DNA from: Cupriavidus gilardii J11
Lineage (GTDB): Bacteria > Pseudomonadota > Gammaproteobacteria > Burkholderiales > Burkholderiaceae
DNA: 47,859 bases
Reading direction: 5' to 3'
Assembly (NCBI RefSeq): GCF_007829435.1
Contig: NZ_VLJN01000026.1
Span: 18,028-65,886, forward strand
How positions within the stretch are numbered: the first letter of the stretch is position 1; the number at the start of each line of letters is the position of its first letter. Below the pieces are notes generated by a model. That model ran no database searches, was not told the DNA's origin, and saw nothing but the letters and a program-made list of their open reading frames with translations. Of the stretch, positions 30,649 to 47,859 are shown piece by piece. The translations under genes were made by a program, and so were the position numbers.

Positions 30649-31137
30649 TCAGAGCTGCAATGTGCCTTGATTCCCGTCGGCGAACCATCCTTCCCAGAAG
30701 GGCTCGTGCAGGCTGATGGGTTGAGGCAGACCGGCCATTATGCCGCTGGCGCGCGCTGCGGCGATACGCTTGGCACAGGGCTCGTCATCCGTTGCGAAAT
30801 GGGTGATTCCCGCAACGACGCACTGACCCAACAGCTTAGCGTCGTCTTTCACTGCGTCCCGCCCGTCGCCAGGCCGACGAGCCGAATGCATGACATCGAA
30901 GGCTCTGGCCGTGGCGATGGCATCGTCAATGTTGAAGGGCAGAACGATGAAATTTTCGAGGCCCAGATCTGAAATCGGCTGCCTGACTTCGTATTCACTA
31001 ACGACGATGGTGGACAGATGCATCGTTACTTCCGTGGCAATAAACCGCTGGAAGTATTGCTTGGCGATGTCATGATGGGGACGGCTTGGGCTGCTCAGGC
31101 AAATCAGAAAACTCGTATCAAGCAATACGGAGTTCAA
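30649..31137 (-). CDS. PIN-domain protein, probable RNase toxin
   Basis: A 162-residue PIN-like nuclease domain. The acidic residues expected for the metal site are visible: D7 in LLDTSFL, E48 in VVSEYEV, D98/D99 in VKDDAKL and D117 in FATDDE. No ATG fits the N-terminus; TTG at 31137 (MNSVLLD) overlaps the upstream gene's stop codon (TTGA), so translation is probably coupled. PIN toxins cut tRNA or mRNA in many VapC-like systems. The partner is far larger than a VapB antitoxin, so this pair is not a standard VapBC. Base composition is visibly less GC-rich than the genes to the left. Confidence 0.75.
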   Translation of the reverse strand: MNSVLLDTSFLICLSSPSRPHHDIAKQYFQRFIATEVTMHLSTIVVSEYEVRQPISDLGLENFIVLPFNIDDAIATARAFDVMHSARRPGDGRDAVKDDAKLLGQCVVAGITHFATDDEPCAKRIAAARASGIMAGLPQPISLHEPFWEGWFADGNQGTLQL

Positions 31138-31901
31138 TCGGATGCCCCCCGGATATGTCGCACCCACTCGGCGGGATTTTCCACATCCTTCCAAGCCTCC
31201 TCGCCCCGCGCAGTAAGCTTGTCAAATTCCTGCTGATCGAAGCGCGGCGAGTAGTGAACGAACTCGACCAGTTGCGCGTCGCTGAGCTCGCCTGTCACTA
31301 GGTCCAGCTTGGCCCGGATGCGCAAATGCACTTGCTTGTACAGATGGTTTTCCGTCTCGGAGCGGATCAGATCGCGGTCTGAGCGCACTACCAGAGTTTT
31401 GCCGTCCGGAAGCTTGATACGCGCGTTCGGCTGGGTGATTCCACCCAGATCGACCATCTCGCCGCGAACATACCGCTCGACATTGACGAGACGCTGTTCC
31501 TTCTCGGCGCGGAAGTTAGTCTGGCTCGAAATCGCAATGACGGCGCCGTCATGCGTTTCGATCCTTACCTTCAAAGAGCCGCGCTTGTGTGCCAACGATT
31601 GCCAGCGCTGCACGATTGTCCGGCGCTTGGGGTCGATTTTGTCCAGATCAGACGTCGTGGCGAGCATCCGCAAGTCATGGACAAGGCTCGGAGAACGAAA
31701 ATGGTGGACCTCGACTGCCAAGGACCCATCCACCAGCGCCACATCCGCAGCGTCGGCGTCACCGTCTTTCCCGCTGCCTTTGAGAAAGTCCCGGACCTCG
31801 CTGGCAAAGCCAGCCAGCGTCGCCAAAGGCACGCGCGCCGGGCTAATCCTGTAGCCAGGCGAATCATCCTCCAACGAAATGGTGATCGGGTTCGTTCCCA
31901 T
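31134..31901 (-). CDS. Unknown protein coupled to the PIN-domain gene
   Basis: A 255-residue soluble protein I do not recognise. It begins MGTNPITISLEDDSPGY and is mostly mixed alpha/beta with several strand-rich stretches (LKVRIETHDGAVIAISS; RIKLPDGKTLVVRS), but has no clear helix-turn-helix, membrane segment or catalytic motif. The stop overlaps the PIN gene start, and gene order is the usual antitoxin-first arrangement. That suggests it is the partner or antitoxin of the PIN protein, but this is inference from context only. Confidence 0.6.
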   Translation of the reverse strand: MGTNPITISLEDDSPGYRISPARVPLATLAGFASEVRDFLKGSGKDGDADAADVALVDGSLAVEVHHFRSPSLVHDLRMLATTSDLDKIDPKRRTIVQRWQSLAHKRGSLKVRIETHDGAVIAISSQTNFRAEKEQRLVNVERYVRGEMVDLGGITQPNARIKLPDGKTLVVRSDRDLIRSETENHLYKQVHLRIRAKLDLVTGELSDAQLVEFVHYSPRFDQQEFDKLTARGEEAWKDVENPAEWVRHIRGASD

Positions 31902-32658
31902 GCATCAATTGTGGCGGTGCCAGCCTTTCACAGTCTACCCCAGCGGACTCGATTCAAGTGCGTATCGCCTGGCCGACCTAAGCCCCGCGTGCCGATCCGA
32001 ATCGGCATCATCAGCGCTTGGTGTTCTCAATGACACAATTCTACGGCGCTGCGCCGCGGGCCGGTATGGGAGGAAGGGCGTAAATAGTTATCCGAACCGC
32101 GAACTTCGGCAGGCCGGCTCGTGCGTTGCACCACCAACCGATGAGCCGGTATCACGGCGGTTGATACTCAAACACGATGATGCTGCGGGATACGTTGCAT
32201 CCCGACCCTCAGCAATTCCCCGGCCCCGAGCTGGCCAAGGGCTACCTGCAGGCCTTCGAGTTGAAGCTGTCTTCAGCATGGGCGCTGCACCAGCTCCAGG
32301 CCAACGCCTTCGGACGACATCGGGTCGCCGTCAGTGTGGTCCGCGATGCAAGGAGGTCACATGAGACAAAGCGACCAATGAAAAAGCCGCGAAGCTGGTA
32401 ACTTCGCGGCTTTGGGCGTTACGAGACTCGTAAACCTTGATTCTGGTGGTGGATTCTACCGGAACCTTGAACCGCTTATCTTCAGCGATGCCGAAACGTC
32501 CCCATAGAAGTGGGAATCGGCGCGCCGAGCAGGGACATATGTGCAACCCGCTGATGCTCGCATTGCGCTGAGACTGCACGGAGGCCTTGCCGAGGACTTG
32601 GCTTCGTGGCCGACGTCACGCCTGAATGCGTTGCCTTCAACCACGAACGGAGTCAACC
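31902..32658. other. 757-bp region without a convincing gene
   Basis: No open frame here shows protein-like composition. A frame at 32180-32401 reads MLRDTLHPDPQQFPGPEL and could be a small protein or a decayed gene end, but it lacks a good ribosome-binding site and a recognisable family. A strong hairpin at 32383-32413 is the only clear structure. Base composition is mixed and lower in GC than the chromosomal part. It may be the scar of earlier insertions or deletions. Confidence 0.5.
32383..32413. terminator. Strong hairpin, probable bidirectional terminator
   Basis: A perfect 12-bp stem, AAAGCCGCGAAG and CTTCGCGGCTTT, around a 7-base loop. The stem is flanked by A residues on the left and ends in TTT on the right, so it can terminate in either direction. 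It closes the region after 32177 on the plus strand. Confidence 0.8.
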
Positions 32659-33132
32659 ATGCAGAAGATGATGATGAACGAAAACGAGCTGGCCACGCGC
32701 TGGAACATCAGCCCCAAGACGTTACAGCGCTGGCGCAGCGAAGGCCGCGGGCCTCGATTCATGAAAATGTCCAAGCGCGTCGTGTACCCCATTGACGAGG
32801 TCTTCGACTTCGAGTCCCAAGCCCTCCGGTCAGCGACGTGGGAGCAAGCATCCGACGTCGTCCTCCCGAGCGGCTCGAAGTTGGTTGATGCGCGCGAGAT
32901 ATCGTATATGACCGGACTGCCCCTGTACGTCTTCACGCAAAAGCAGATGCGAGAGGCGTTGGGCATCCCGCATCGTCGGGTTCAGAAGCTCATCCGGTTC
33001 GACCGCGACGAGGTCATGGTATGGGCCAAACGTTGGTTGCAGGACGCTCAAGATCAGGGCATCGACGTGAAGGCCGATCCCGCCAGCCAGCATAGATCGT
33101 TGCTGCATGCCTTGGCATCGCTGCCCGTCTGA
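32659..33132 (+). CDS. Helix-turn-helix DNA-binding protein
   Basis: A 157-residue protein. Residues about 5-45 (ENELATRWNISPKTLQRWRSEG, here split by the turn at N-I-S) form a MerR/AlpA-like helix-turn-helix followed by a short wing (PRFMKMSKRVVYPIDEVFDF). A second, weaker helical segment at about 75-125 (REISYMTGLP; RRVQKLIRFDRDEV) resembles another DNA-binding unit. Such proteins often act as excisionases or local regulators on mobile elements. It is convergent with the Fic gene, 22 bp away. ATG at 32659 is used; the Shine-Dalgarno match is poor. Confidence 0.65.
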   Translation: MQKMMMNENELATRWNISPKTLQRWRSEGRGPRFMKMSKRVVYPIDEVFDFESQALRSATWEQASDVVLPSGSKLVDAREISYMTGLPLYVFTQKQMREALGIPHRRVQKLIRFDRDEVMVWAKRWLQDAQDQGIDVKADPASQHRSLLHALASLPV

Positions 33133-33154
33133 CCACTGCATCCGCGCCACCGGC

Positions 33155-34273
33155 CTACTGGCCCGCCAGCTCGTAGCCGGTGCTGCGCCCGCCGCCGGGC
33201 GATTTCTTCAACACGCCCAGTTCCAGCAACTGCGTGATGTCGCGCAACGCGGTGTCGGGCGAGCACTTGGCGATGGTCGCCCACTTGCTGCTGGTGAGCT
33301 TGCCCTCGAAGCCGTCGAGCAGGCGGTTGAGCAGTTTCACCTGCCGTTCGTTCAACGACGTGCCAGCCCAGCGTTGCCAGAAGCGCGCCTTGACCAGCAC
33401 GGCGTCCAACGTGGACTGCGTGCTGGCGACCGCGCGCCCGAGTGTGTCGAGGAACCACGACAGCCAGCCGGTGGCGTCGAGCGTGCCCTTCTGCGTGCGC
33501 TCCAGCACGTCGTAGTAGTCCTTGCGCTCGCGCTGGATTTGCGCCGACAGGCTGTAGAAGCGTTGCGGGCTGCCGTCGGCGCGGGCCAGGAACAGATCGC
33601 CCACGGCGCGCGCGATGCGGCCGTTGCCATCGTCGAAGGGGTGCAGCGTCACGAACCACAGATGCGCCAGCCCGGCCTTGATGAGCGCGGGCTCGCCGGT
33701 GTCCGCGTTGGCCCACGCCAAGAAGCGCGCTGTTTCGGCGGGCAGCGCATCGGCGGGCGGTGCCTGGAAGTGAACCTTGCGTCGCCCCACCGGGCCGGAA
33801 ACCACCTGCATCGGCCCGGCGGCATCGTCACGCCACCGGCCCACGGTGAGCCTATTCATGCCCGAGTACCCGGTCGGGAACAGGGCGGCGTGCCAGCCGA
33901 ACAGGCGCTCGGCGGTCAGTGGGGAGGCAGCGCGCGAAGTGGCATCGAGCACCATCTCCACGACGCCTTCGACGTGCCGATCCACCGGGGCCACCGCGCC
34001 GATGTCCACGCCCAGACGGCGAGCAATCGACGAACGCACCGATTCGACGTTCAGCACTTCGCCTTCGATTTCGCTGGTCTTGACCACGTCCTCCGTCAGC
34101 GCGGCGAGGCTGGCCTGGTCGCGCAGCGCCAACCCCACGTCGGCCAGGCGCCCCAGCAGCACGCCCTGGGCACGGCTGACCTCGGTCAGCGGCCCGGTCA
34201 GCGCGGCCAGGTCGTAGCGCCATTTCGGCCAGTCGTCGGCCTGCCAGATGTAAAGTTTTTCTCCGCTATCCAT
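33155..34273 (-). CDS. Fic-family protein AMP transferase with C-terminal winged helix
   Basis: A 372-residue class II Fic protein. Its catalytic motif HPFDDGNGR starts at H211 and is complete, so AMP transfer to a protein hydroxyl is possible. The N-terminal inhibitory motif T66-x3-E70-G71 is also intact, which in family members blocks ATP binding until displaced. A DUF4172-like N-terminus precedes the Fic core (about 110-260), and residues about 300-370 look like a winged helix (KWATIAKCSPDTALRDITQL). The latter could bind the palindromic sites just upstream of its own start. ATG at 34273 lies inside one of those palindromes. Confidence 0.87.
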   Translation of the reverse strand: MDSGEKLYIWQADDWPKWRYDLAALTGPLTEVSRAQGVLLGRLADVGLALRDQASLAALTEDVVKTSEIEGEVLNVESVRSSIARRLGVDIGAVAPVDRHVEGVVEMVLDATSRAASPLTAERLFGWHAALFPTGYSGMNRLTVGRWRDDAAGPMQVVSGPVGRRKVHFQAPPADALPAETARFLAWANADTGEPALIKAGLAHLWFVTLHPFDDGNGRIARAVGDLFLARADGSPQRFYSLSAQIQRERKDYYDVLERTQKGTLDATGWLSWFLDTLGRAVASTQSTLDAVLVKARFWQRWAGTSLNERQVKLLNRLLDGFEGKLTSSKWATIAKCSPDTALRDITQLLELGVLKKSPGGGRSTGYELAGQ

Positions 34274-34336
34274 GCGGAGATTAAACACCCTATTCGCCGC
34301 AAAGACAAGTCATTCTCCGCGTGATGTGCGGCGAAT
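34260..34336. promoter_or_regulatory. Cluster of inverted half-sites upstream of the Fic gene
   Basis: Related half-sites of the form (A)TTCTCCGC or ATTCGCCGC occur repeatedly. TCTCCGC at 34260-34266 faces GCGGAGA at 34274-34280 with a 7-base spacer. ATTCGCCGC at 34292-34300 faces GCGGCGAAT at 34328-34336, and ATTCTCCGC stands between them at 34312-34320. They cover the start codon and promoter region of the Fic gene, fitting negative autoregulation by its winged helix. Confidence 0.6.
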
Positions 34337-34381
34337 GTGGCGGCTAATCACCGCATCCAGCAGCGCAATATGTTCCTATGT

Positions 34382-34407
34382 TTCTCCAAACTGCTACATT
34401 GGGAGAA
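34382..34407. promoter_or_regulatory. Inverted repeat at the AbiEi start
   Basis: TTCTCC at 34382-34387 and GGAGAA at 34402-34407 form an inverted repeat; the right arm overlaps the ribosome-binding site of the AbiEi gene. AbiEi antitoxins are known to repress their own promoters by binding inverted repeats, so this is a plausible operator. Confidence 0.45.
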
Positions 34408-34410
34408 TAT

Positions 34411-35040
34411 ATGGAACACGAAACGGCCATACCCGCCGACACCCACAGCCAGCGCGTGCTCGATTTGGCCAGCCAGAAGGGATTGCTGCGCGCCAGCGAT
34501 CTGGACGCCATCGACGCGCCGCGGGTCGTCCTGACGCGCTTGATCGCCGCTGGCCTGCTGGACAGGGTCGGGCGCGGCCTCTATCGCCTGCCCGGTCATC
34601 CGATCTCGGAACACGAAAGCCTCGCGGTGGTGGCGGCCAAGGTGCCGCAGGCCGTGTTCTGCCTGCTGACGGCGCTGCAATTCCACGGGCTAACCACCCA
34701 ACTCCCGCGCCAGATCTGGATCGCCATGCCGCGCGGCAGCCACGCGCCCCGCATCGACTACCCGCCGATCAGGATGGTTCAAATGACGGGCGATGTCCAC
34801 GCGGCGGGCATCGAGGAGCACCTGCGCGACGGCGTGAAGCTGCGGGTCTACAGCGCAGCCAAGACGGTCGTGGACTGCTTCAAGCACCGCAACAAGATCG
34901 GTCTGGATGTGGCGCTGGAAGCGCTGAAAGATGCCTGGAGGGCGCACAAGGCGTCGGCGGACGATCTGTGGCGGTACGCCGAGGTGTGCCGGGTCGCCAA
35001 CGTGATGCGGCCCTATATGGAAGTGGTCGCCCATGAGTAA
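34411..35040 (+). CDS. AbiEi-type antitoxin of a type IV toxin-antitoxin system
   Basis: A 209-residue protein with an N-terminal winged helix (about 10-75: RVLDLASQKGLLRASDLDAI...GLLDRVGRGLYRL in two parts) and the AbiEi C-terminal domain (QLPRQIWIAMPRG; VYSAAKTVVDCFKHRNKIG). In AbiE systems this protein represses its operon and counteracts the AbiEii nucleotidyltransferase toxin. ATG at 34411 follows GGGAG by five bases. The toxin gene that should follow overlaps this stop codon but is truncated (35033 onward), so this antitoxin is an orphan. Confidence 0.83.
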   Translation: MEHETAIPADTHSQRVLDLASQKGLLRASDLDAIDAPRVVLTRLIAAGLLDRVGRGLYRLPGHPISEHESLAVVAAKVPQAVFCLLTALQFHGLTTQLPRQIWIAMPRGSHAPRIDYPPIRMVQMTGDVHAAGIEEHLRDGVKLRVYSAAKTVVDCFKHRNKIGLDVALEALKDAWRAHKASADDLWRYAEVCRVANVMRPYMEVVAHE

Positions 35041-35089
35041 TCGCGCGGCCTCGCTCCCATGAGCGCCTGATCGCCCGCGTGATCATCCG
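35033..35089 (+). pseudogene. Remnant of the AbiEii toxin gene, 5' end only
   Basis: ATG at 35033 overlaps the antitoxin stop and reads MSNRAASLP before a stop codon. MSNRAAS is the usual AbiEii N-terminus. Continuing in the next frame gives ERLIARV, which fits the following residues of that family, so a one-base shift is likely. Similarity ends by about 35089; none of the nucleotidyltransferase core is present downstream. The rest was lost or separated by insertion of the element to the right. Confidence 0.6.
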
Positions 35090-35140
35090 GCGACGGTGAT
35101 CGGTCGCGGCTTCCGTGCGGATTTGCATGGAGACCCGACG

Positions 35141-35608
35141 ATGACCCGACACTGCACCTGCTGCGGCAAGCCCTTCGAACCCCGCCCGCAAGTTCCCGAC
35201 CAATCCTTTTGTTCTGCGCCCGACTGCCAGCGCGCCCGCAAGCGCCAATGGCAGCGGGCCAAGCTCCAGTCCGATCCCGACTACCGGATCAACCAGCGCG
35301 CCGCGCAGCAGGCGTGGTCGCAGCGCAATCAGGACTACTGGCGCAACTACCGTGACGCTCGGCCCGAATACGCACAACGCAACCACGAGCAACAGCGGTC
35401 GCGGGATCAGGGCCGAAACGGGGATCTTGCAAAGATGGACGCGTGCGACCTGCCGAGCGGCCTGTACCGCATCACGCGGCATCCGGCATTGCCGAGGGAA
35501 AACGGCGACTCGTGGGTCGTCGAGATCACGCCGGTCTGCGTGACGTGTCCGTGCAAGATGGACGTGTCAAGAGAGGACGTGATCGACGCCTCGTCGATTC
35601 GCCCGTAA
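35141..35608 (+). CDS. Cys-rich zinc-finger-like protein of the recombinase module
   Basis: A 155-residue protein. The N-terminus has CTCCGKPF and, 17 residues later, CSAPDCQ, a four-Cys set likely to bind zinc. A charged helical stretch rich in Gln, Arg and Tyr follows (QRAAQQAW; RNYRDARPEYAQRN). The C-terminal part adds another CVTCPC. The protein type recurs next to large serine recombinases, but its role is unknown; a DNA-binding accessory or directionality factor is conceivable. ATG at 35141 is preferred to an upstream in-frame GTG at 35096 because similarity begins here. Confidence 0.7.
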   Translation: MTRHCTCCGKPFEPRPQVPDQSFCSAPDCQRARKRQWQRAKLQSDPDYRINQRAAQQAWSQRNQDYWRNYRDARPEYAQRNHEQQRSRDQGRNGDLAKMDACDLPSGLYRITRHPALPRENGDSWVVEITPVCVTCPCKMDVSREDVIDASSIRP

Positions 35609-35746
35609 CTTTGCTTCCAAAACGGGTTCTCTCGAACATCCTGCATGGCAACGATTCCAACCGTGTGCGTTGCCGCCGTGCGGCGGCGGCGCGTCCATTG
35701 AAGGGGCGGCAGACCCGAGATCGCCAATCACGGAGTGACCGGGTCT

Positions 35747-37306
35747 ATGCAATCGAACGAATCGCCTATAAGCCAGCCGGGCCCGGTGTTCCGCGCCGCG
35801 CAGTACGTGCGCATGTCCACCGAGCACCAGCAATACTCGACGGAGAACCAGGCCGACAAAATCCGCGAGTACGCCGCCCGGCGCAACATCGACATCGTCC
35901 GCACCTACGCCGACGAGGGCAAGAGCGGTCTGCGCATCGACGGTCGGCAGGCGCTCCAGCAGCTGATCGGCGACGTTCAGGCGGGCAAGGCCGACTTCCA
36001 GATCATCCTCGTCTACGACGTGAGCCGCTGGGGCCGGTTCCAGGACGCCGACGAAAGCGCCTACTACGAATACATCTGCCGCCGCGCCGGCATCCAGGTC
36101 GCCTACTGCGCCGAGCAGTTTGAGAACGACGGCTCGCCGGTGTCCACCATCGTCAAGGGCGTCAAGCGCGCGATGGCAGGCGAATACAGCCGCGAGCTGT
36201 CGGCGAAGGTGTTCGCCGGGCAGTGCCGCCTGATCGAACTCGGATTCCGGCAAGGCGGGCCAGCGGGCTACGGTCTGCGCCGCGTGCTGATCGACCAGTC
36301 CGGCGCGGTGAAGGGGCAGCTTTCCCGTGGTGAGCACAAGAGCCTGCAAACCGACCGCGTGATCCTGCAACCCGGCCCGGACGAGGAAGTGGCCGTCGTG
36401 AACCAGATCTACCGCTGGTTCGTCGAGGACGGCCTGTTCGAATCCGAAATCGCCGACCGGCTCAACACCCGTGGCATCCAGACCGACCTCGGGCGCGACT
36501 GGACGCGGGCCACGGTGCGCGAGGTGTTGTCCAACGAGAAATACATCGGCAACAACGTCTACAACAGGCGCTCCTTCAAGCTCAAGAAGGTGCGCGTGGT
36601 GAACCGCCCGGAGATGTGGATCAAGAAGGAAGGCGCGTTCGAGGGCATCGTGCCACCCGACCTGTTCTACACGGCGCAAGGCATCCTGCGCGAACGCGCC
36701 CACCGCTTCAGCGACGAGGAACTGATCGAGAAGCTGCGGCGGCTCTTCCAGCAGCACGGCTACCTGTCCGGCCTGATCATCGACGAGGCCGAGGGGATGC
36801 CGTCGGCGGCGGCCTACGCGCATCGCTTCGGCAGCCTGATCCGCGCCTACCAGACGGTGGGCTTCACGCCGGATCGGGACTACCAGTATCTGGAGGTCAA
36901 CCAGTTCCTGCGCCGCCTCCACCCAGAGATCGTCGGCCAAACCGAGCGGATGATCGCCGAGGTCGGCGGCGCGGTCGTGCGCGATCCGGCGACCGACCTG
37001 CTCACGGTCAACCGCGAGTTCACCGTCTCGCTGGTGCTGTCGCGCTGCCAACTGCTCGACAACGGTCGCCGCCGCTGGAAGGTGCGCTTCGACACCAGCC
37101 TCACGCCGGACATCACGGTCGCCGTGCGTCTGGATGACTGCAATCAGGCGGCATTGGACTACTACCTGCTGCCGCGTCTGGACTTCGGCCAGCCGCGCAT
37201 CCACCTGGCCGATCACAACGGCCTCGAATTCGAGAGCTACCGCTTCGACAGCCTGGACTACCTCTACGGCATGGCCGAGCGCAGCCGTCTGAGGAGAGTC
37301 GCATGA
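35747..37306 (+). CDS. Large serine recombinase
   Basis: A 519-residue site-specific recombinase. The resolvase-like catalytic domain (about 15-170) has the nucleophile S24 in YVRMSTEHQ and later VYDVSRWGR with catalytic-site arginines. The recombinase domain follows (GGPAGYGLRRVLID; TRGIQTDLGRDWTRATVREVL in two parts), then a C-terminal region that lacks an obvious zinc-ribbon CxxC set. It would integrate and excise a mobile element by cutting short att sites with 2-bp staggers. GGAG lies 11 bases before ATG 35747; GTG at 35735 is an alternative. The stop overlaps the next gene (ATGA). Confidence 0.92.
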   Translation: MQSNESPISQPGPVFRAAQYVRMSTEHQQYSTENQADKIREYAARRNIDIVRTYADEGKSGLRIDGRQALQQLIGDVQAGKADFQIILVYDVSRWGRFQDADESAYYEYICRRAGIQVAYCAEQFENDGSPVSTIVKGVKRAMAGEYSRELSAKVFAGQCRLIELGFRQGGPAGYGLRRVLIDQSGAVKGQLSRGEHKSLQTDRVILQPGPDEEVAVVNQIYRWFVEDGLFESEIADRLNTRGIQTDLGRDWTRATVREVLSNEKYIGNNVYNRRSFKLKKVRVVNRPEMWIKKEGAFEGIVPPDLFYTAQGILRERAHRFSDEELIEKLRRLFQQHGYLSGLIIDEAEGMPSAAAYAHRFGSLIRAYQTVGFTPDRDYQYLEVNQFLRRLHPEIVGQTERMIAEVGGAVVRDPATDLLTVNREFTVSLVLSRCQLLDNGRRRWKVRFDTSLTPDITVAVRLDDCNQAALDYYLLPRLDFGQPRIHLADHNGLEFESYRFDSLDYLYGMAERSRLRRVA

Positions 37307-38202
37307 GCAAAATGCACCACGCTTCCGAGCTGCAAATGATCCCGGTCGATCAGATCGCGGTGCTCAACCCACGCGACCGCAACGGCCGCGTGTTCGAGGA
37401 GATCGTCGGCAACATCAAGAACGTCGGTCTGAAGAAGCCGGTCACGGTCACGCCGCGAGACGATCTGGAGGATGGCAAACACTTCCTGCTGATCTGCGGC
37501 GAAGGCAGGCTCAAGGCGTTCAAGTCGCTCGGCGAGACGCAGATCCCGGCGCTGGTCGTGAACGTCAACGACGAGGACGCCTTCATCATGAGCCTGACCG
37601 AGAACATCGCCCGCCGGAAATACAGTGCGCTGGAACTGCTGATGAGCATCGAACAGTTGAGCCAGCAGGGCTACGACAAGCGCGTCATCGCCCAGAAAAC
37701 CGGCCTGAGCCTCGACTACATCAAAGGCATCCTGCTCCTCTTCGAGAAGAGCGAGGAACGCCTGCTGGCCGCCGTCGAGGCCGGCAGGGTTCCACTCAAC
37801 GTCGCCATCACCATCGCGGGCGCAAGCGACGAAGAAGCGGTGCAGGCCGCGTTGCAGGACGCCTACGAAAGTGGCCAACTGCGTGGCGGGCAACTGATGC
37901 AGGCGCGGCGCGTGCTCCAGCGGCGCAGCACCTTGGGGAAAACGCTGGCCCACCGGCCCACGCGCAAGGGAGCGTCCGTCACCACCTCCAGCCTGGTGCG
38001 TAACTACCAGCACGAGGTCGAGCGGCAGAAGCTGATGGTCAAGAAGGCCGAATTCGCCCAGCAGCGCCTGCTGTTCGTGATCGAGGCGCTGCGTCAGTTG
38101 CTGGCTGACGAGCATTTCTCCAACCTGCTGCGCGCCGAAGGACTGGACACCTTGCCCAAGCAACTGGCCGAGCGCGTCTGGGCCGGAGGCCACGCGGCAT
38201 GA
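37303..38202 (+). CDS. ParB-like protein with RepB C-terminal domain, first copy
   Basis: A 299-residue protein. The N-terminal ParB domain has the CTP-binding signatures GEGRLKAF (about 66-73) and TENIARR (about 97-103), and a helix-turn-helix lies near 125-150 (DKRVIAQKTGLSLDYIKG). The C-terminal half resembles the RepB plasmid-partition domain. ParB proteins usually work with a ParA ATPase at parS sites; no parA is present here. The start ATG overlaps the recombinase stop and has GAGGAG upstream, so it is made from the recombinase transcript. Confidence 0.85.
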   Translation: MSKMHHASELQMIPVDQIAVLNPRDRNGRVFEEIVGNIKNVGLKKPVTVTPRDDLEDGKHFLLICGEGRLKAFKSLGETQIPALVVNVNDEDAFIMSLTENIARRKYSALELLMSIEQLSQQGYDKRVIAQKTGLSLDYIKGILLLFEKSEERLLAAVEAGRVPLNVAITIAGASDEEAVQAALQDAYESGQLRGGQLMQARRVLQRRSTLGKTLAHRPTRKGASVTTSSLVRNYQHEVERQKLMVKKAEFAQQRLLFVIEALRQLLADEHFSNLLRAEGLDTLPKQLAERVWAGGHAA

Positions 38203-39083
38203 GCCGACCGCCACTGGGGTTCATCCCAGAACCGATCACGCTTGCGCTGGATCGGATTCTGCCGTCGCGCAAGACGCCGGAGGGTTTGAATACCTCGCGA
38301 AAGTTCAAGCAGATCATGGCCTCGATGGAAGCAGTCGGACTGATCGAACCCTTGAGCGTGGGCAAAGCCGATAAGGCCACCGGCCAGCACATCCTGCTCG
38401 ACGGGCACATGCGCCTGCTGGCGCTGCGGCAGCTCGGCTACGTCGACGCACCGTGCCTGATCGCTACCGACGACGAAAGCTACACCTACAACAACCGGAT
38501 CAACCGCATCTCGTCCATTCAGGAGCACCACATGCTTCGGCGAGCGGTCGAGCGTGGCGTTTCGCCCGAGCGGCTGGCCAAGGCGCTGAACGTGGACATC
38601 AGCCAGATCCACAAGAAGGTGAGCCTGCTCGAAGGCATCTGCCCGGAGGCGGTCGAGATGCTAAAGGATCAGCACTTCTCTGCCAACCTCGGTTCGGTGC
38701 TGCGCAAACTCAAACCGACCCGGCAGGTCGAGTGCGTGGAATTGATGCTCACTGCCAACAACATGACGGTCGCCTACGCCGAAGCCCTTCTCGCAGCCAC
38801 GCCGCCGCACCTGCTGGTCAGCGAGAAGCGGCCCCGGAAGATATCCGGCGTCACGGCGGAACAGATGGTGAAGATGGAGCGCGAGATGGGAAACATCCAA
38901 GGGCAACTGAAGCTGGTCGAAAAATCCTACGGTCAGGACGTGCTGCTACTCGTGCTGGCGCGCGGCTACCTCGGCAAGCTGATCGACAACAAGGCGGTGT
39001 TCCGTTTCCTGTCGCAGCGCCAGCCCGACGTGCTGGCCGAGTTCGAGAACATCATCCAGACCGTGGCGCTGGACGGCAAATGA
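38199..39083 (+). CDS. ParB-like protein with RepB C-terminal domain, second copy
   Basis: A 294-residue paralogue of the preceding protein. The ParB domain is recognisable (ILLDGHMRLLALRQLGY about 64-80), but the second CTP motif is changed to NNRINRIS, lacking the ENxxR pattern of the first copy. A helix-turn-helix follows (PERLAKALNVDISQIHKK), then a RepB-type C-terminal domain. It begins within the stop codon of the first copy. The two may form a heteromer or bind different sites. Confidence 0.83.
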   Translation: MSRPPLGFIPEPITLALDRILPSRKTPEGLNTSRKFKQIMASMEAVGLIEPLSVGKADKATGQHILLDGHMRLLALRQLGYVDAPCLIATDDESYTYNNRINRISSIQEHHMLRRAVERGVSPERLAKALNVDISQIHKKVSLLEGICPEAVEMLKDQHFSANLGSVLRKLKPTRQVECVELMLTANNMTVAYAEALLAATPPHLLVSEKRPRKISGVTAEQMVKMEREMGNIQGQLKLVEKSYGQDVLLLVLARGYLGKLIDNKAVFRFLSQRQPDVLAEFENIIQTVALDGK

Positions 39084-39086
39084 AGA

Positions 39087-40451
39087 ATGCGTCGGATCGT
39101 CGATGCCATTTCGCCATCGCACGCGGCACCACCGTTCGACAACGCCGATGACGGCGACGGTGCGGCGATGGTCGCGCACCGCAACGCGCCCGAGGCCGAC
39201 CCGGCTTGCCTCTACGGCCTGATCGGCGACGTGGCTCGCGCGGGCAGCGACGGCACAGAGACCAACGCCTGCGCCATCGCCGCCAACTTCATGGCCTACC
39301 TGTCCTGTGCGGTCGGGCGCGGCGTGTACCTGCCTGTCGGCAACACCCGCCACCACGCGCGGCTGTTCTGCTTGCACGTCGGGCGCTCGGGCCGTGGCCG
39401 TAAGGGCGACGCGGTGTCGCTGGTGCTGCGCATCGATCAGGCGCTGCGCGCGATGGACGAAGGCTTCGCGCCGCAGATTCATCGCGGCGGCCTGTCCAGC
39501 CGCGAAGGGTTGGTGGCGCTGATGCACGATGGCTATCGGCAAGGCCGACTAGAGGTGCCCGCCATCGAGGACAAGCGGCTGTGGGTGGTCGAATCCGAAT
39601 TCGCCAACGTGCTGCATCAGGGACGGCGCGACGGCAACACGCTGTCGGCGGCGCTGCGCGATTGTTGGGATGGCGTCGATCTCAAGCCCGCCACCAAGTC
39701 GAACCGGCTCTACGCCAGCCAGCCGCACCTCTGCCTGAGCGGCGCGATCTCGCCCAGCGAACTGACGGGCCTGATGAGCGCCCGCGATCTCACCAACGGC
39801 TTCGCCAATCGCTTCCTGTTGATCTGGGCCGAGCGCACGCGGATGCTGCCCTTCCCGAAGGAGACGCCGCAGGCGGTGGTGGAGCATCTGGCGTGCAGGA
39901 CGCTCGAGGTGTTGGCCTTCGTTCATGCCAATCGGCACGACCGTCGCGACCACCTGCGGATGGAGCTATCGCCGCAGGCGCAATGGCGCTATGCCCAGCT
40001 CTACCGGGGCGAACTGAACGACGATCTCGGCGACGGCGTTGTCGGCGCGTTGTTGGAGCGCCGTGCCCCGATGCTGCTACGGCTGGCGATGCTGATGGCG
40101 CTGACCGATCTGCAAACCCGCATCGATGCCCAGCACATCGACGCGGCGACGGCATGGATTCGCCACGCCACGGCGTCCGTGCGCTTCGTGTTCGTCAGCG
40201 CCGCCGAGGAGGCGAAGCTGGCGCAGGTGCTGGAAATGTCGAACCGCGTGCTGGCTTTCCTCCACGAGCGTGGCCAGGCCACGCGCAGCCAGATCAGCGC
40301 GGAGTGCTTCCGGGGCAAGGTGACCAAGGCGCGGATCGACGCCAGCCTGGAGCACCTGTTGGCCAGCACGCCGCCCAGGATCAGCGTGCAGTGGGTCGAG
40401 CGGCCTGCCGACACGCCGGGTACGCCAACGCGGGTGTACCGACTCGCGTAG
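39087..40451 (+). CDS. DUF3987 (YfjI-like) protein
   Basis: A 454-residue protein of the DUF3987 family, often found on plasmids, phages and islands beside replication or primase genes. A RecA-like nucleotide-binding core is suggested by LHVGRSGRGRKGDAVSL near residue 96, where the loop ends RKGD instead of the usual GKS/T, and by RLWVVESEFANVL near 165. LCLSGAISPSEL and GFANRFLLIW are typical later family segments. The C-terminal 80 residues look like a winged helix. It starts only 3 bp after the second ParB-like gene and ends the coupled set. Confidence 0.75.
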   Translation: MRRIVDAISPSHAAPPFDNADDGDGAAMVAHRNAPEADPACLYGLIGDVARAGSDGTETNACAIAANFMAYLSCAVGRGVYLPVGNTRHHARLFCLHVGRSGRGRKGDAVSLVLRIDQALRAMDEGFAPQIHRGGLSSREGLVALMHDGYRQGRLEVPAIEDKRLWVVESEFANVLHQGRRDGNTLSAALRDCWDGVDLKPATKSNRLYASQPHLCLSGAISPSELTGLMSARDLTNGFANRFLLIWAERTRMLPFPKETPQAVVEHLACRTLEVLAFVHANRHDRRDHLRMELSPQAQWRYAQLYRGELNDDLGDGVVGALLERRAPMLLRLAMLMALTDLQTRIDAQHIDAATAWIRHATASVRFVFVSAAEEAKLAQVLEMSNRVLAFLHERGQATRSQISAECFRGKVTKARIDASLEHLLASTPPRISVQWVERPADTPGTPTRVYRLA

Positions 40452-40465
40452 TGGCGCGAAGCTCA

Positions 40466-40542
40466 TTTCGCTCGTTTCGCTGCGCCGAACCGCCCGCAAG
40501 TGCTTGTCGGGCTTCTCATTTCGCTGATTTCGCTCTTTTCGC
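40466..40542. repeat. Iteron-like repeats with 9-bp period
   Basis: TTTCGC occurs at 40466, 40475, 40519, 40528 and 40537. Steps within each group are exactly 9 bp and the two groups are 44 bp apart; both groups begin with TCATTTCGCT. They lie directly after the DUF3987 gene in the 256-bp gap before the WYL gene. Such spaced repeats are typical of binding sites for replication or partition proteins, here perhaps one of the ParB-like proteins. Confidence 0.55.
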
Positions 40543-40647
40543 CAGCCCCTATTAAGTCGAGCAATCAGTCGCTCTGCGGCGGGCTGGTAGCTGCCCCTTT
40601 AAAATCATCATCATTTTGCGATGCACTGAAGCTATTTATGCAACTGC

Positions 40648-40680
40648 TTGACGGATTGTTTTGATATGCGTATGCTACGC
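40648..40680 (+). promoter_or_regulatory. Sigma-70-type promoter with overlapping palindrome (WYL gene)
   Basis: TTGACG at 40648-40653 and TATGCT at 40671-40676 are separated by exactly 17 bp. A 13-bp palindrome, GCGTATGCTACGC (40668-40680), lies across the -10 box. A regulator bound there would block the promoter, and the gene just downstream encodes a WYL regulator, so autorepression is likely. The promoter position also implies that translation starts at 40708, not at the upstream ATG codons. Confidence 0.65.
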
Positions 40681-40707
40681 CAAACGATAGGAAAACTCCC
40701 GCAATCC

Positions 40708-41604
40708 ATGTCCAGCGACCGACTCTCAGGAATGACCCAAGCGCAACGCGACCGACTCGCGTTCGTCGAGTTGCGTCTGCGCTTCGTGGGCGAAATCCGC
40801 CGACAGGACTTGGTCACGCGCTTCGACATCCAGGCGGCGGCGGCGACGCGGGACATCGCCCAATACAAGGAGATGGCGCCCGGCAACATGGAGTACGACC
40901 CCAAGGGCAAGGTCTATGTCCGCGCATCCTGGTTTCGGGCCTTGTTCGACTTCCCGGCCGAGCGCGTGCTCACGTGGTTGTCCCAGGGCTATGGCGACGG
41001 AGAACCGATCCGCTGGAAGGGTGTTGTGGCGCAGGAAGGCACCAGCCTGCCGGGCAAGATCGATCTGGAGCTGCTGTCCGTTCTGACGCGCGCCATCCAT
41101 CAAGGCGCAGCCGTTGAGATTGCCTACCGCGCCCTGTCGAGCGGACTGACCACCCGCGAAATCGTGCCCTTCGCGCTGGCTGACAGCGGACTGCGTTGGC
41201 ACGTCCGTGCCTTTGACCGGCGCAGCGGCGAGTTCCGGGATTTCGTGCTGGGCCGCCTCGATGACGCGCAACTCCTTTCCGGGCCGGTGGCTGACCACGA
41301 GAAGTCCGATCAGGACATCCAGTGGAACCGGATCACTGAGCTCGAGCTTGTGCCGCATCCGGCCAACGTGCAGCACCCCGACACCATCGAGGCCGAGTAC
41401 GGCATGGAGGGCGGCGTGCTCAAGTTCCGCGCGCGTGCGGCGATGGCGGGTTACCTGCTGCGCCGCTGGAACGTGGACTGCACCGATGACCACAGCCTCA
41501 AGGGTGGCGAGTACCACCTGTGGCTCCGAAATCGCCAAGCGCTTTACGGCGTCACCAACCTGGTGCTCGCACCGGGCTACGGCGAACCGAGCAAGGAGTG
41601 GTGA
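40708..41604 (+). CDS. WYL-domain transcription factor (BrxR/CapW-like)
   Basis: A 298-residue regulator. Residues about 8-72 form a winged helix (RRQDLVTRFDIQAAAATRDI), about 120-190 the WYL domain (REIVPFALADSGLRWHVRAFD), and about 210-298 a WCX-type C-terminal domain (RMRR-like segment and LWLRNRQALYGVTNLVLAP). This layout matches BrxR and CapW, homodimeric repressors that control BREX, CBASS and other defence loci and may sense nucleic-acid ligands. It is the first gene of the putative defence operon. The start is chosen from the promoter at 40648-40676. Confidence 0.85.
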   Translation: MSSDRLSGMTQAQRDRLAFVELRLRFVGEIRRQDLVTRFDIQAAAATRDIAQYKEMAPGNMEYDPKGKVYVRASWFRALFDFPAERVLTWLSQGYGDGEPIRWKGVVAQEGTSLPGKIDLELLSVLTRAIHQGAAVEIAYRALSSGLTTREIVPFALADSGLRWHVRAFDRRSGEFRDFVLGRLDDAQLLSGPVADHEKSDQDIQWNRITELELVPHPANVQHPDTIEAEYGMEGGVLKFRARAAMAGYLLRRWNVDCTDDHSLKGGEYHLWLRNRQALYGVTNLVLAPGYGEPSKEW

Positions 41605-41664
41605 CCACGATGATCGCCAACGCCTGCAATCCCGCCGACCGCAACGACCGAAAGGAGTCACACC

Positions 41665-41871
41665 ATGGCTAACCCCCCGGCCAACCACGGCAAGCAATGG
41701 ACGCCTGCCGACGTTTCGCAGCTCAAGCAGCTCGCCAAGCAGAACACGCCCACGCGCGTCATCGGCCTCAAGATGGGCCGCACTGAGGACGCTGTGCGCA
41801 ACAAGGCGAGCGAGAACGACGTCTCCCTCAAGCCCACGAACCAGTCGCCCTACAACCGGCGCAAGCCCTGA
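41665..41871 (+). CDS. Small SANT/Myb-like protein of the defence operon
   Basis: A 68-residue basic protein with good ribosome-binding site AAAGGAG. Residues about 10-50 (WTPADVSQLKQLAKQN; RVIGLKMGRTEDAVRNKA) match the SANT/Myb-like or SWIRM-like three-helix pattern with the W and spaced hydrophobic residues. It ends in SPYNRRKP. It sits between the WYL gene and the helicase, spaced 60 and 33 bp from them. Likely a small DNA-binding protein; its role in the system is unknown. Confidence 0.7.
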   Translation: MANPPANHGKQWTPADVSQLKQLAKQNTPTRVIGLKMGRTEDAVRNKASENDVSLKPTNQSPYNRRKP

Positions 41872-41904
41872 GGGCGGGCAAGCAAGAAGAATAAGGGGCG
41901 CACC

Positions 41905-45458
<3,554 letters not shown>

Positions 45459-45459
<1 letters not shown>

Positions 45460-46508
45460 TGGTCGATCAGCACCACGACATCTTCGACTCGCTGACCCGC
45501 AACGCCTTCGATTTCCTGGAGCGCGGTATCGCGGAGTTCGACAAGACGCCCAAGTATTCCGTCATCCACTTCTGCGCGGCGGTGGAGATGCTGCTCAAGG
45601 CGCGACTGATGAAGGAGCACTGGTCGCTGATCGTCTCCAAGCCCGAGCAGGCCAACCTCGCCAAGTTCATGGCCGGGGACTTCATCTCGGTCACGCTGGA
45701 GGATTGCAGGGCGCGGATTCGTGATGTCGCGGGCGAGGACATCGGCGACGAAGCCTACGGCAGCTTCCGCGCGCTGGCGAACCATCGCAACAAGATGGTT
45801 CACTTCTTCCACAACGGGCTGGAAAACGACGAAAAGGCCAAGGCGCAGATCGTCGCCGAGCATTGCCGCTCGTGGTTTCATCTGCACCGCCTGTTGAACC
45901 GGTGGAACAGCTACTTCCACGACTTCAGCGGCGAAATCGCTCACGCGGATCGGGCGATGAAGGGCCACCGGCAATACTTGGCCGCTAAGTTCAAGGCGCT
46001 TGCCCCGGAATTGGACGCCGTTCGCAATGCGGGTGGCAAACCGAAAGCATGCAGCGCCTGCGGCTTCAAGGCCGCCATACCGGACGCCCTTGACGATCAG
46101 ATCGCGTCGCTGCGCTGTCTGGTGTGCGATCACACCGAAACGCAGGTCGAACTCGAATGCCCGCATTGCGGCGAACCCATCGTCATTGCGACCGAGGGCT
46201 ACGCGACGTGCGAGCACTGCGAGGAACGCATCGAGCCTGAGCATCTGGTGGATGCCTTGACCAAAGACGTGGTCGGCACGAAGGACTACTTCGAGACCGG
46301 GTTGCCTGCCAACTGCGGTAATTGCGAGGGCTACCACACCGTCGTCGAGCGTGGCGGCCACTACTTCTGCACGAACTGCTTCGACATCTTCGATGACATC
46401 GAGCAGTGCCAGTGGTGCAACGAATACAACACCGGCGATATGGAACACAGTTACTCAGTCGGCTGTAGCCAATGCGATGGCAAGGTCGGCTGGGAGAAGG
46501 ACGACTAA
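45459..46508 (+). CDS. HEPN-like domain fused to four zinc ribbons
   Basis: A 349-residue protein. The N-terminal half is all-helical and resembles a HEPN domain: YSVIHFCAAVEMLLKARL is a typical HEPN helix, and R110-NKMV-H115 fits the RX4-6H ribonuclease motif. The C-terminal half (198-339) contains eight CxxC pairs, at 198/201, 220/223, 234/237, 251/254, 286/289, 304/307, 317/320 and 336/339, enough for four zinc ribbons. An RNA-cutting effector with a zinc-ribbon nucleic-acid sensor is inferred. It overlaps the helicase stop (TGATG) and is followed directly by the methyltransferase. I do not recognise this exact fusion as a described defence component. Confidence 0.75.
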
Positions 46509-47859
46509 ATGAACAACAACATCAAAACACCCAAGAAGCTAATCGAAGTCGCCCTGCCGCTCGATGCCATCAATGTCGCCGCTGCCCGCGAGAAAAGCAT
46601 CCGCCACGGCCACCCCAGCACGCTGCACCTGTGGTGGGCGCGGCGTCCGCTGGCGGCGGCGCGGGCAGTCATCTTCGCGCAGATGGTCAACGACCCCGGC
46701 TACCAGCAAGGCGGCGGGTTCCGCTACGGCGTCAACAAGGAAAAGGCGCAGGCCGAGCGCGAGCGGTTGTTCAAAATCATCGAAGACCTGGTGCAGTGGG
46801 AGAACACCAACAACGAGGAAGTGCTGGAGCGCGCCCGCGCCGAAATCCGCCGCTCGTGGCGTGAGGTCTGCGAACTGAACAAGGGCCACCCCCAGGCCGC
46901 CGAACTGTTCAACCCCGACAAGCTTCCTGCCTTTCACGACCCCTTCGCGGGCGGCGGCGCGCTGCCGCTTGAGGCGCAGCGTCTGGGCTTGGAGAGCTAC
47001 GCCTCCGACCTCAACCCCGTGGCCGTCACCATCAACAAGGCCATGATCGAAATCCCGCCGCGCTTCGCGGGCCGCGCGCCGGTGGGGCCTCGCGTGCCGG
47101 ACGACAAGCAGGGCAAGCTGACAGAAGATTGGTCGGGCCCCAAAGGGCTGGCTGAAGACGTGCGCCGCTACGGCGCATGGATGCGGACTGAGGCCGAGAA
47201 GCGCATCGGCCATCTATACCCGCAGGTGGAAATCACCGCCGAGATCGTGAAGGAGCGGCCCGACCTCAAGCCGCTGCTGGGCGAGAAACTTACCGTCATC
47301 GCATGGCTGTGGGCGCGCACGGTAAAGAGCCCCAACCCGGCGTTCAGTCATGTGGATGTGCCGCTGGCTTCGACCTTCATCCTCTCCAGCAAGGCGGGCA
47401 AGGAAAGCTATGTGCAGCCTGTGGTTGAGGGTGGCAAGTACCGCTTCACGGTGAAGGTAGGCGAGCCTCCGGAAGAAGCGAAGGAAGGAACCAAGGCTGC
47501 CGGCCGTGGCGCGAACTTCCGCTGCGTGCTCTCGGACACACCGATTGGCGGCGACTACATCAAGGCCGAGGGGCAGGCGGGACGCATGGGCGAGAGATTG
47601 ATGGCCATCGCCGCCGAAGGCGCGCGAGGCCGGATCTATTTGGCTCCGACCCAAGAGCATGAAGATGCGGCCCTGCAAGCGCAGCCAAGCTGGAAGCCCT
47701 CCGGAGATGTTCCTGCTCGACTCACAGGCGGTACGTGCGTGCCCTATGGCCTGTCCGAATGGGGTGACCTCTTCACCCCGCGCCAACTGGTGGCGCTGAC
47801 CACCTTCTCCGATCTGGTAGGCGAAACGATTTCCAAGGTCAAGGCCGACGCGTTGGCGG
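46509..47859 (+). CDS. DUF1156 DNA methyltransferase, partial
   Basis: The first 450 residues of a large protein that runs off the window. It begins with the DUF1156 signature ([35 protein letters not shown]). The SAM-binding motif [13 protein letters not shown] starts at D144, followed by [10 protein letters not shown] near 164. [24 protein letters not shown] near the end (here split only by the family position) is also typical of DUF1156 enzymes. The catalytic D/NPPY motif is not yet seen and may lie further on. It would methylate adenine in host DNA, as in R-M-like or DISARM-type systems. It begins one base after the previous stop codon. Confidence 0.85.

Follow-up and report, generated by a model that had tools for sequence, protein, structure and literature searches.

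We found that, in a 47,859-nucleotide stretch of DNA from Cupriavidus gilardii J11 (contig NZ_VLJN01000026.1, positions 18,028 to 65,886; this whole stretch is called the window hereafter), the gene for a large serine recombinase is followed by two overlapping genes for ParB-family proteins, which we call ParB1 and ParB2, and that these three genes form a conserved module. Our best explanation, to which we give about an even chance, is that this module provides a family of small elements with their integration core and that the ParB pair serves the recombinase as accessory factors, acting on its direction or on synapsis. The presence of the module in small elements and also in a prophage beside anti-virus genes suggests that its ParB-like proteins aid the jumping of DNA rather than its segregation. 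To our knowledge, large serine recombinases are widely used tools with few and mutually unrelated directionality factors, and the ParB pair with its overlapping genes is a testable candidate for a new control of direction or synapsis, possibly through a CTP-driven clamp. Because the element is tiny and widespread and often adjoins defence genes, it also bears on how such genes move.

The recombinase and two ParB genes are constant partners

The window recombinase displays a Resolvase catalytic domain and then a Recombinase domain in Pfam and PHROGs searches, which is the arrangement that defines a large serine recombinase. Pfam gave no zinc-ribbon match (Zn_ribbon_recom) in this protein and a weak HNH_repeat match at 326-377 instead; since large serine recombinases without a zinc ribbon exist, the zinc ribbon was not taken as defining. 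When the sequence was read directly, ATGA overlaps were seen between the recombinase and ParB1 genes (37303-37306) and between the ParB1 and ParB2 genes (38199-38202), while the stop of ParB2 at 39083 is followed by a 3-bp gap and then by a helicase/primase-like gene, so that the open reading frames (ORFs) and their coupling are as an earlier sequence-only reading of this stretch had reported. The domains that this reading had named were also recovered by Pfam for the recombinase (Resolvase and Recombinase), ParB1 (ParB_N and RepB) and ParB2 (RepB), but its DUF3987 label for the last gene is correct only in spirit: Pfam gave no match for it even at E 5, and PHROGs matched it to helicase and primase families instead. 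The Cys-rich protein encoded upstream of the recombinase gave a weak match to the DUF2116 treble clef (E 0.014), and conservation among its homologues mostly begins at residue 13-18 of the form that starts at GTG.

To see which of these genes belong together, 157 loci in all were fetched from a genome scan with one genome per species (at least 80 loci) and from a viral-contig scan (77 loci). Linkage was counted where the recombinase was complete and no less than 2 kb of sequence lay downstream, a ParB being scored at a coverage of at least 60%; the counts for genome loci and gene junctions given here are among the matches listed. A complete recombinase was followed by both ParB genes in 72/75 genome loci and on 52/54 viral contigs, the exceptions being L068, L138, L204, L240 and also L069, which is one solely because its ParB1 match covers 55%. 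The Cys-rich gene was found upstream in 73/74 genome loci versus 9/47 viral contigs, and the helicase-like gene in 22/73 and 6/50, respectively. Since the recombinase, ParB1 and ParB2 genes are linked while the presence of the other two varies, the unit is recombinase-ParB1-ParB2 rather than the set of five genes that had been proposed from the window; the co-occurrence survey that the same proposal called for bore it out for three genes and not for the Cys-rich and helicase-like ones. Of the 157 loci, 120 allowed both junctions to be read, and the same 4-bp overlap was present between recombinase and ParB1 in 98 and between ParB1 and ParB2 in 100 of these, the start codon having been picked nearest to the upstream stop, a choice that favours overlaps. 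As judged from their persistence across diverged sequences, these overlaps are not a product of chance.

The partnership was also seen from the side of ParB2. In an order-wide scan of 300 genomes, 17 matched ParB2 (E up to 1e-25) and 18 matched the recombinase (E up to 1e-60). By reading of the two resulting tables, a recombinase immediately preceded each of the 15 full-length ParB2 places, on the same strand, and ParB2 followed 15 of the 16 full-length recombinases (as a partial match in G335), the 16th, in G128, lying at a contig edge. Fragments without a partner were those of the recombinase in G104 and G185 and of ParB2 in G200 and G128. The claim that the ParB-like genes are always beside a recombinase thus becomes nearly always, in both directions, with a few exceptions. 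The module is present in alpha-, beta- and gammaproteobacteria, on plasmids, on chromosomes and in prophages, and defence genes often adjoin it. Among 50,697 records of sequenced phages, one match to the recombinase (E up to 1e-20) and one to ParB2 (E up to 1e-5) were found, and a single unverified 7.5-kb record accounts for both.

Sharp ends and direct repeats point to a mobile module

Close homologues, with recombinases 90-99% identical to that of the window, were found in Rhodanobacter, Pigmentiphaga, Thiomonas, Ottowia and others, among the matches listed. When 16 of them were aligned, nine stopped matching the window at 35098-35103 on the left and 12 stopped at 40533-40543 on the right, while the match of the remaining ones continues into cargo held in common, is truncated where the contig ends or stops at another point. 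The DNA to the right of the module is exchangeable between homologous loci: Hma genes lie there in the window, L073, L078 and L096; G034 has a 4.5-kb stretch common to L065 (97.8%) and partly to L064, and its type I restriction genes begin at 4.8 kb; and L063 has a DUF499 defence-type gene in a stretch that recurs in L127 behind a block that L067 has alone. As an aside on the Hma loci, in L073 and L096 HmaA is separated from the genes after it by about 0.84 kb of sequence that is missing from the window (at 45460-45471).

Direct repeats were searched around the module in 125 loci, where the best shuffled score was 15.5. Seven loci scored higher and three of them are convincing: L092 (4744 bp bounded by a 51-bp repeat, score 41), L132 (4950 bp, 49-bp repeat that includes the 3' half of a tRNA-Val, score 39) and L239 (4359 bp, 23-bp repeat, score 20.5). 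Apart from the module, these three minimal elements contain no more than one ORF of at least 80 amino acids, and the helicase-like gene is absent from all of them. The repeats of L207 and L208 lie inside NusG-like genes on either side of the module and were not counted as att sites, and those of L097 and L128 pass the shuffled maximum narrowly. Besides these, the Agrobacterium plasmids of C58 and Sta005 share a 3904-bp unit, 96.9% identical, at unrelated places, and exactly at its ends are imperfect direct repeats that resemble a tRNA T arm (21/27 and 19/27 bases alike, compared to at most 17 in 2000 random pairs). A T-arm repeat test on 126 loci gave four matches, of which L132 alone is clean. 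ARAGORN detected a tRNA in 8 of 60 loci, and only the tRNA-Val(CAC) of L132 is tied to a module end; a tRNA-Ser 263 bp before the Cys-rich match of L113 is suggestive. No clean empty site was found for the g29 and g33 islands or in a search of P. aeruginosa plasmids, and an Rfam scan of window positions 31000-42000 gave no match. Judged from these alignments and repeats, the module family behaves as a mobile unit, and it forms a small integrative element in the three clean cases.

ParB1 keeps the CTP-site motifs and no PF13614-type ParA was detected

In an alignment of 35 members, G42, P46, G66, G68, E100, N101 and R104 of ParB1 were invariant and lined up with the CTP-site motifs of Spo0J, with the GERR box reading GEGR. 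By the C-motifs, which we take to be GxxxP, GxxR and ENxxR, ParB1 falls within the ParB CTPase clade and CTP binding is predicted for it. ParB2 retains GxxxP and a DGHxR motif, with ENxxR replaced, and thus does not show the full set. The predicted models (mean pLDDT of 79.9 for ParB1 and 78.5 for ParB2) match structures of ParB (Spo0J), Noc and KorB, including KorB 8qa8; since the query-normalised TM-scores of the top ten matches are as low as 0.24-0.36, the domain arrangement in these models is not reliable.

The sequence-only reading had described the ParB-like genes as being without a ParA and had named a parA gene elsewhere in the same element as an observation that would speak against it. 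A search with the ParA-type family PF13614 (AAA_31), the only ParA-like family searched, gave no match inside the prophage regions of six genomes, namely that of the window and those of five relatives, while it gave matches in 14/14 control genomes and elsewhere in all six searched genomes. The description thus stands for this family. Since the ParB pair has no PF13614-type partner, lies beside a recombinase and occurs in elements made of the module only, a role in mobility or in the upkeep of an excised circle is the economical reading. The absence of this ParA, the neighbouring recombinase and the repeat-bounded minimal elements all agree with the earlier suggestion that the pair has a job other than partition, and they do not single out which one.

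The window prophage has another serine integrase

The window module occupies the left cargo slot of a prophage, with Fic/AbiEi genes on one side and, on the other, the genes of a putative Hma defence system, for which PADLOC gave HmaA and HmaB matches. The left end of this prophage, starting TGGTGGTG, is common to seven genomes (the window genome, G034 and G084-G088). Beyond the cargo, G088 carries genes for a terminase, a portal, a protease, a tape measure protein, a primase and a ParB-methylase (phrog_498), and the host element is thus a temperate prophage by its gene content (terminase, portal, protease and tape measure in G088); in the window genome, a terminase 92% identical to that of G088 is found on contig C27. 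Contigs C26 and C27 overlap exactly at their ends over 257 bp and, if joined, would give a prophage of 66,890 bp whose right end lies at a tRNA-Ala(CGC) gene (C27:4073-4148), where TGGTGG is found again. This setting, a cargo slot of an approximately 66.9-kb prophage with another serine integrase, had been overlooked in the sequence-only reading. The flank of this tRNA-Ala gene has matches in 60/60 genomes of the genus, and in the 19 relatives for which the locus was printed the tRNA-Ala is followed by other sequence, not by the prophage.

The right end of the prophage was located at a tRNA gene in four of the seven genomes (tRNA-Phe in G087 and G088, tRNA-Lys in G034 and tRNA-Ala in G000), and the prophage of G084 runs into a second left end. 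Tandem prophages, with a right end joined to the next left end, were seen in G084 (C1, near 1765127) and in L096 (1-5750). Among 399 genomes, 13 have the right-end pattern, with 16 rows for 15 distinct sites and none in the reversed control: an intact tRNA comes after ten of the 15 sites (8 Ala and 2 Phe, own genome counted), a broken tRNA-Phe after one and other sequence after four. These results on tRNA genes describe the prophage, not the module.

If the module was the integrase of the prophage itself, targeting the CCACCA ends of tRNAs, the TGGTGG repeat at tRNA genes where the prophage ends and the place of the module near the left end in seven prophages would both be accounted for. No tyrosine integrase (PF00589) was detected in the prophage regions of six genomes, and a second serine integrase (596 amino acids, with a weak zinc-ribbon match) was found near the right end in G088 (L168:9108-10898), with identities to G088 of 93% in the window genome, where it lies at C27:9792-11579, 89% in G087 and 77% in G034. 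Since the prophage has this different serine integrase, the window recombinase is an additional enzyme located in the left cargo slot, and it probably does not serve as the prophage integrase. Recombinase and ParB matches were also lacking in four 19-20 kb stretches, taken from four relatives with the same right end; the other integrase (E up to 1e-30) was not found in these stretches either, and two stretches at the right end of relatives had neither enzyme. We rejected the idea on the second integrase and the module-free stretches, and consider it very unlikely; of the 13 genomes with the right-end pattern, ten are not in the recombinase list, which comes from a draw of 300 in which some of the 13 may be missing. 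Related elements that sit at tRNA-Ala and share this right end were noted in G112 (C1:2342243-2395771) and G285 (C1:1804787-1886302), and no recombinase-ParB module was found in the 19-20 kb read from their left ends.

Possible roles of the ParB pair

We propose that very small integrative elements of one family would have the module as their integration core, in which overlapping genes encode a large serine recombinase together with the two ParB-family proteins. This recombinase would move a circle into and out of chosen sites, such as one tRNA 3' end or, for the Agrobacterium pair, tRNA-arm-like sequences. ParB1, with its CTP-site motifs, and ParB2, which lost one, would most likely load on the element DNA and then either set the direction of the recombinase towards excision or join the two ends of the element. 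The unit is also carried in larger elements, such as the cargo slot of the window prophage. Given the gene order, linkage, sharp ends and minimal elements that the sequences indicate, together with no PF13614-type ParA match, we infer that the ParB pair acts on the recombinase. A more specific version is tentative and rather doubtful: a heteromeric ParB pair, one member with a CTP-type clamp and the other having lost it, would set recombinase direction or synapsis in an element of about 4-5 kb with three conserved genes, which would be among the smallest self-mobile integrative elements and would also be parked in prophages beside exchangeable defence cargo.

Several observations weigh against this proposal. 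Clean terminal repeats are missing from most loci, and the unguided repeat search did not single out the ends of the C58 and Sta005 units, for which 6/40 and 1/40 shuffles scored equally. The ends of the window core are sharp, but no repeat beyond chance was found there (the best score was attained in 4/40 shuffles). Within the prophage lineage, the position of the module is fixed, at 2.6-3.6 kb from the left end, so it may be a passenger there. Finally, in loci that have the Cys-rich gene, its product could be the accessory factor.

Considering that the minimal elements leave few jobs for the ParB pair, it may direct or assemble the recombinase complex, or it may care for the circle. In the latter case, the pair would retain the excised circle, by segregation without a ParA of its own or by binding an origin, and the helicase-like gene and iterons would be the origin in a longer form. 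ParB1 and ParB2 do match Noc, Spo0J and KorB structures. In the window, the iteron clusters flank a CAAG-TG-CTTG inverted repeat at 40497, and the first and second iteron matches are 53 bp apart; TTTCGCTNN (TTTCGC) iterons in two clusters 53 bp apart follow the helicase/primase-like gene in 16 of the 28 loci that have it, among the matches listed. Iterons occur only alongside this gene, and the two mark a longer form that might replicate. Against circle maintenance by the pair stand the low frequency of the helicase-like gene and its absence from the three minimal elements, the lack of a PF13614 match in the prophage regions, and the finding that no 9-mer near the module is common to more than 26 of 45 loci of a group; we thus consider this explanation unlikely. 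No operator or parS-like motif common to all loci was found, only motifs of subsets. It is similarly improbable that the ParB proteins are KorB-like transcription regulators of the integration operon, with translational coupling for dosage only. KorB is among the structure matches and a CCATGC/GCATGG inverted repeat was seen by eye upstream of the first gene in several loci, but this repeat is not in every locus printed and, in our judgement, two regulators kept in elements of 4-5 kb would be excessive for autoregulation. A role of the pair in direction or synapsis is therefore favoured over both circle maintenance and regulation. As a side note on the iterons, L232 has extra copies and L071 has a second solo copy near 690.

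Comparison with known systems

We know of no directionality factor of large serine integrases that belongs to the ParB family. ParB1 and ParB2 resemble the ParB proteins of ParABS systems, KorB and Noc by sequence and predicted fold and differ from ParABS in being two in tandem, nearly always with a recombinase and with no PF13614-type ParA match.

The published systems are compared here as they appear in the passages of the papers available to us. The closest are the ssrA islands of Dehalococcoides, in which a serine-recombinase module and a 210-amino-acid ParB-domain protein come with variable adjoining cargo, insertion into an RNA gene (the tmRNA T-loop) and tandem islands (PMC3146451). These islands differ by a CcrB-like DsiB with a second small recombinase, by RecF-like, Mom and RNA-polymerase-domain genes, and by one ParB instead of two, in another organism and at another target (PMC3146451). 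The window has a different gene set, without the DsiB/DsiA pair and tmRNA target of these islands. As for phage and SCC large serine integrases, the recombinase has partner proteins and defence or resistance cargo (PLE, PMC6002521; SCC, PMC3146451), but the window recombinase has no zinc-ribbon match. ParB-domain proteins also occur in prophages as ParB-MTase and ParB-Tls loci, the ParB-methylase of G088 being an example of the former; there, the ParB is joined to a methylase and not to a recombinase operon (PMC6536676). Concerning target sites, a Paracoccus survey predicted a tRNA-Met site for one serine-recombinase phage (PMC6536676), and a Mycobacterium survey gave tRNA/tmRNA sites for tyrosine integrases (16/23) and, in the accessible passages, named none for six serine ones (PMC10654092). 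Among titles, beginnings of abstracts and passages, mostly from outside subscription journals, our literature search returned no description of a unit of a recombinase with two ParB/RepB-like proteins.

Features of the window and neighbouring observations

Table 1. Features of the module, its host prophage and its cargo in the window
Feature	Position	Strand	Evidence
Prophage left end, core TGGTGG, repeated at tRNA-Ala on contig C27	32444..32449	+	left end identical in seven genomes
Prophage helix-turn-helix protein, excisionase-like	32626..33132	+	Pfam HTH_17; PHROG excisionase and regulator 2.5e-9 for L063 orthologue
Left cargo: Fic protein	33155..34288	-	Pfam Fic 3.2e-16
Left cargo: AbiEi-type antitoxin/regulator	34378..35040	+	PADLOC AbiEi 1.1e-91
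Conserved core unit, sharp ends in many genomes	35098..40543	+	alignment of 16 close homologues
Cys-rich, treble-clef-like small protein gene	35141..35608 (ATG; alternative GTG start 35096)	+	ORF list
Large serine recombinase, 523 amino acids	35735..37306	+	Pfam Resolvase 1.1e-23, Recombinase 6.3e-24; PHROG integrase 5.3e-62
ParB1: ParB_N and RepB C-terminal, CTP-site motifs retained	37303..38202	+	Pfam, Spo0J alignment, structure matches
ParB2: RepB C-terminal, ParB-like fold, DGHxR motif, ENxxR lost	38199..39083	+	Pfam, alignment, structure matches
Helicase/primase-like gene, optional (earlier labelled DUF3987)	39087..40451	+	PHROGs helicase 4.5e-16, primase 3.1e-11
Iteron-like repeats TTTCGCTNNTTTCGC, two clusters	40466..40542 (matches 40466, 40519, 40528)	+	motif search, sequence read
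Right cargo: WYL regulator	40648..41604	+	Pfam WYL 2.7e-11
Right cargo: HmaA helicase	41905..45459	+	PADLOC HmaA, 2134.8 bits
Right cargo: HmaB DNA methylase, extends past window end	46509..47859	+	PADLOC HmaB 2e-255

On Sinorhizobium meliloti megaplasmids (L054, L055, pSymA), two to four ParB2-like places are often present, some of them annotated as short fragments, and on two Agrobacterium plasmids (L050 18375-21954, L051 18382-21967) TniQ, TniB and Mu-type transposase genes come directly after the module. On Rhizobiales plasmids, T-arm-like sites near CCTTGANNGGATTCGAACC separate Fic, toxin-antitoxin and other genes (L057 12059, 15941 and 30504; L058 9409; L059 8796; L060 7667 and 10240; L062 334 and 3098). 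One Fic gene on four plasmids is followed by different sequence exactly at the T-arm-like site, as if by cassette movement.

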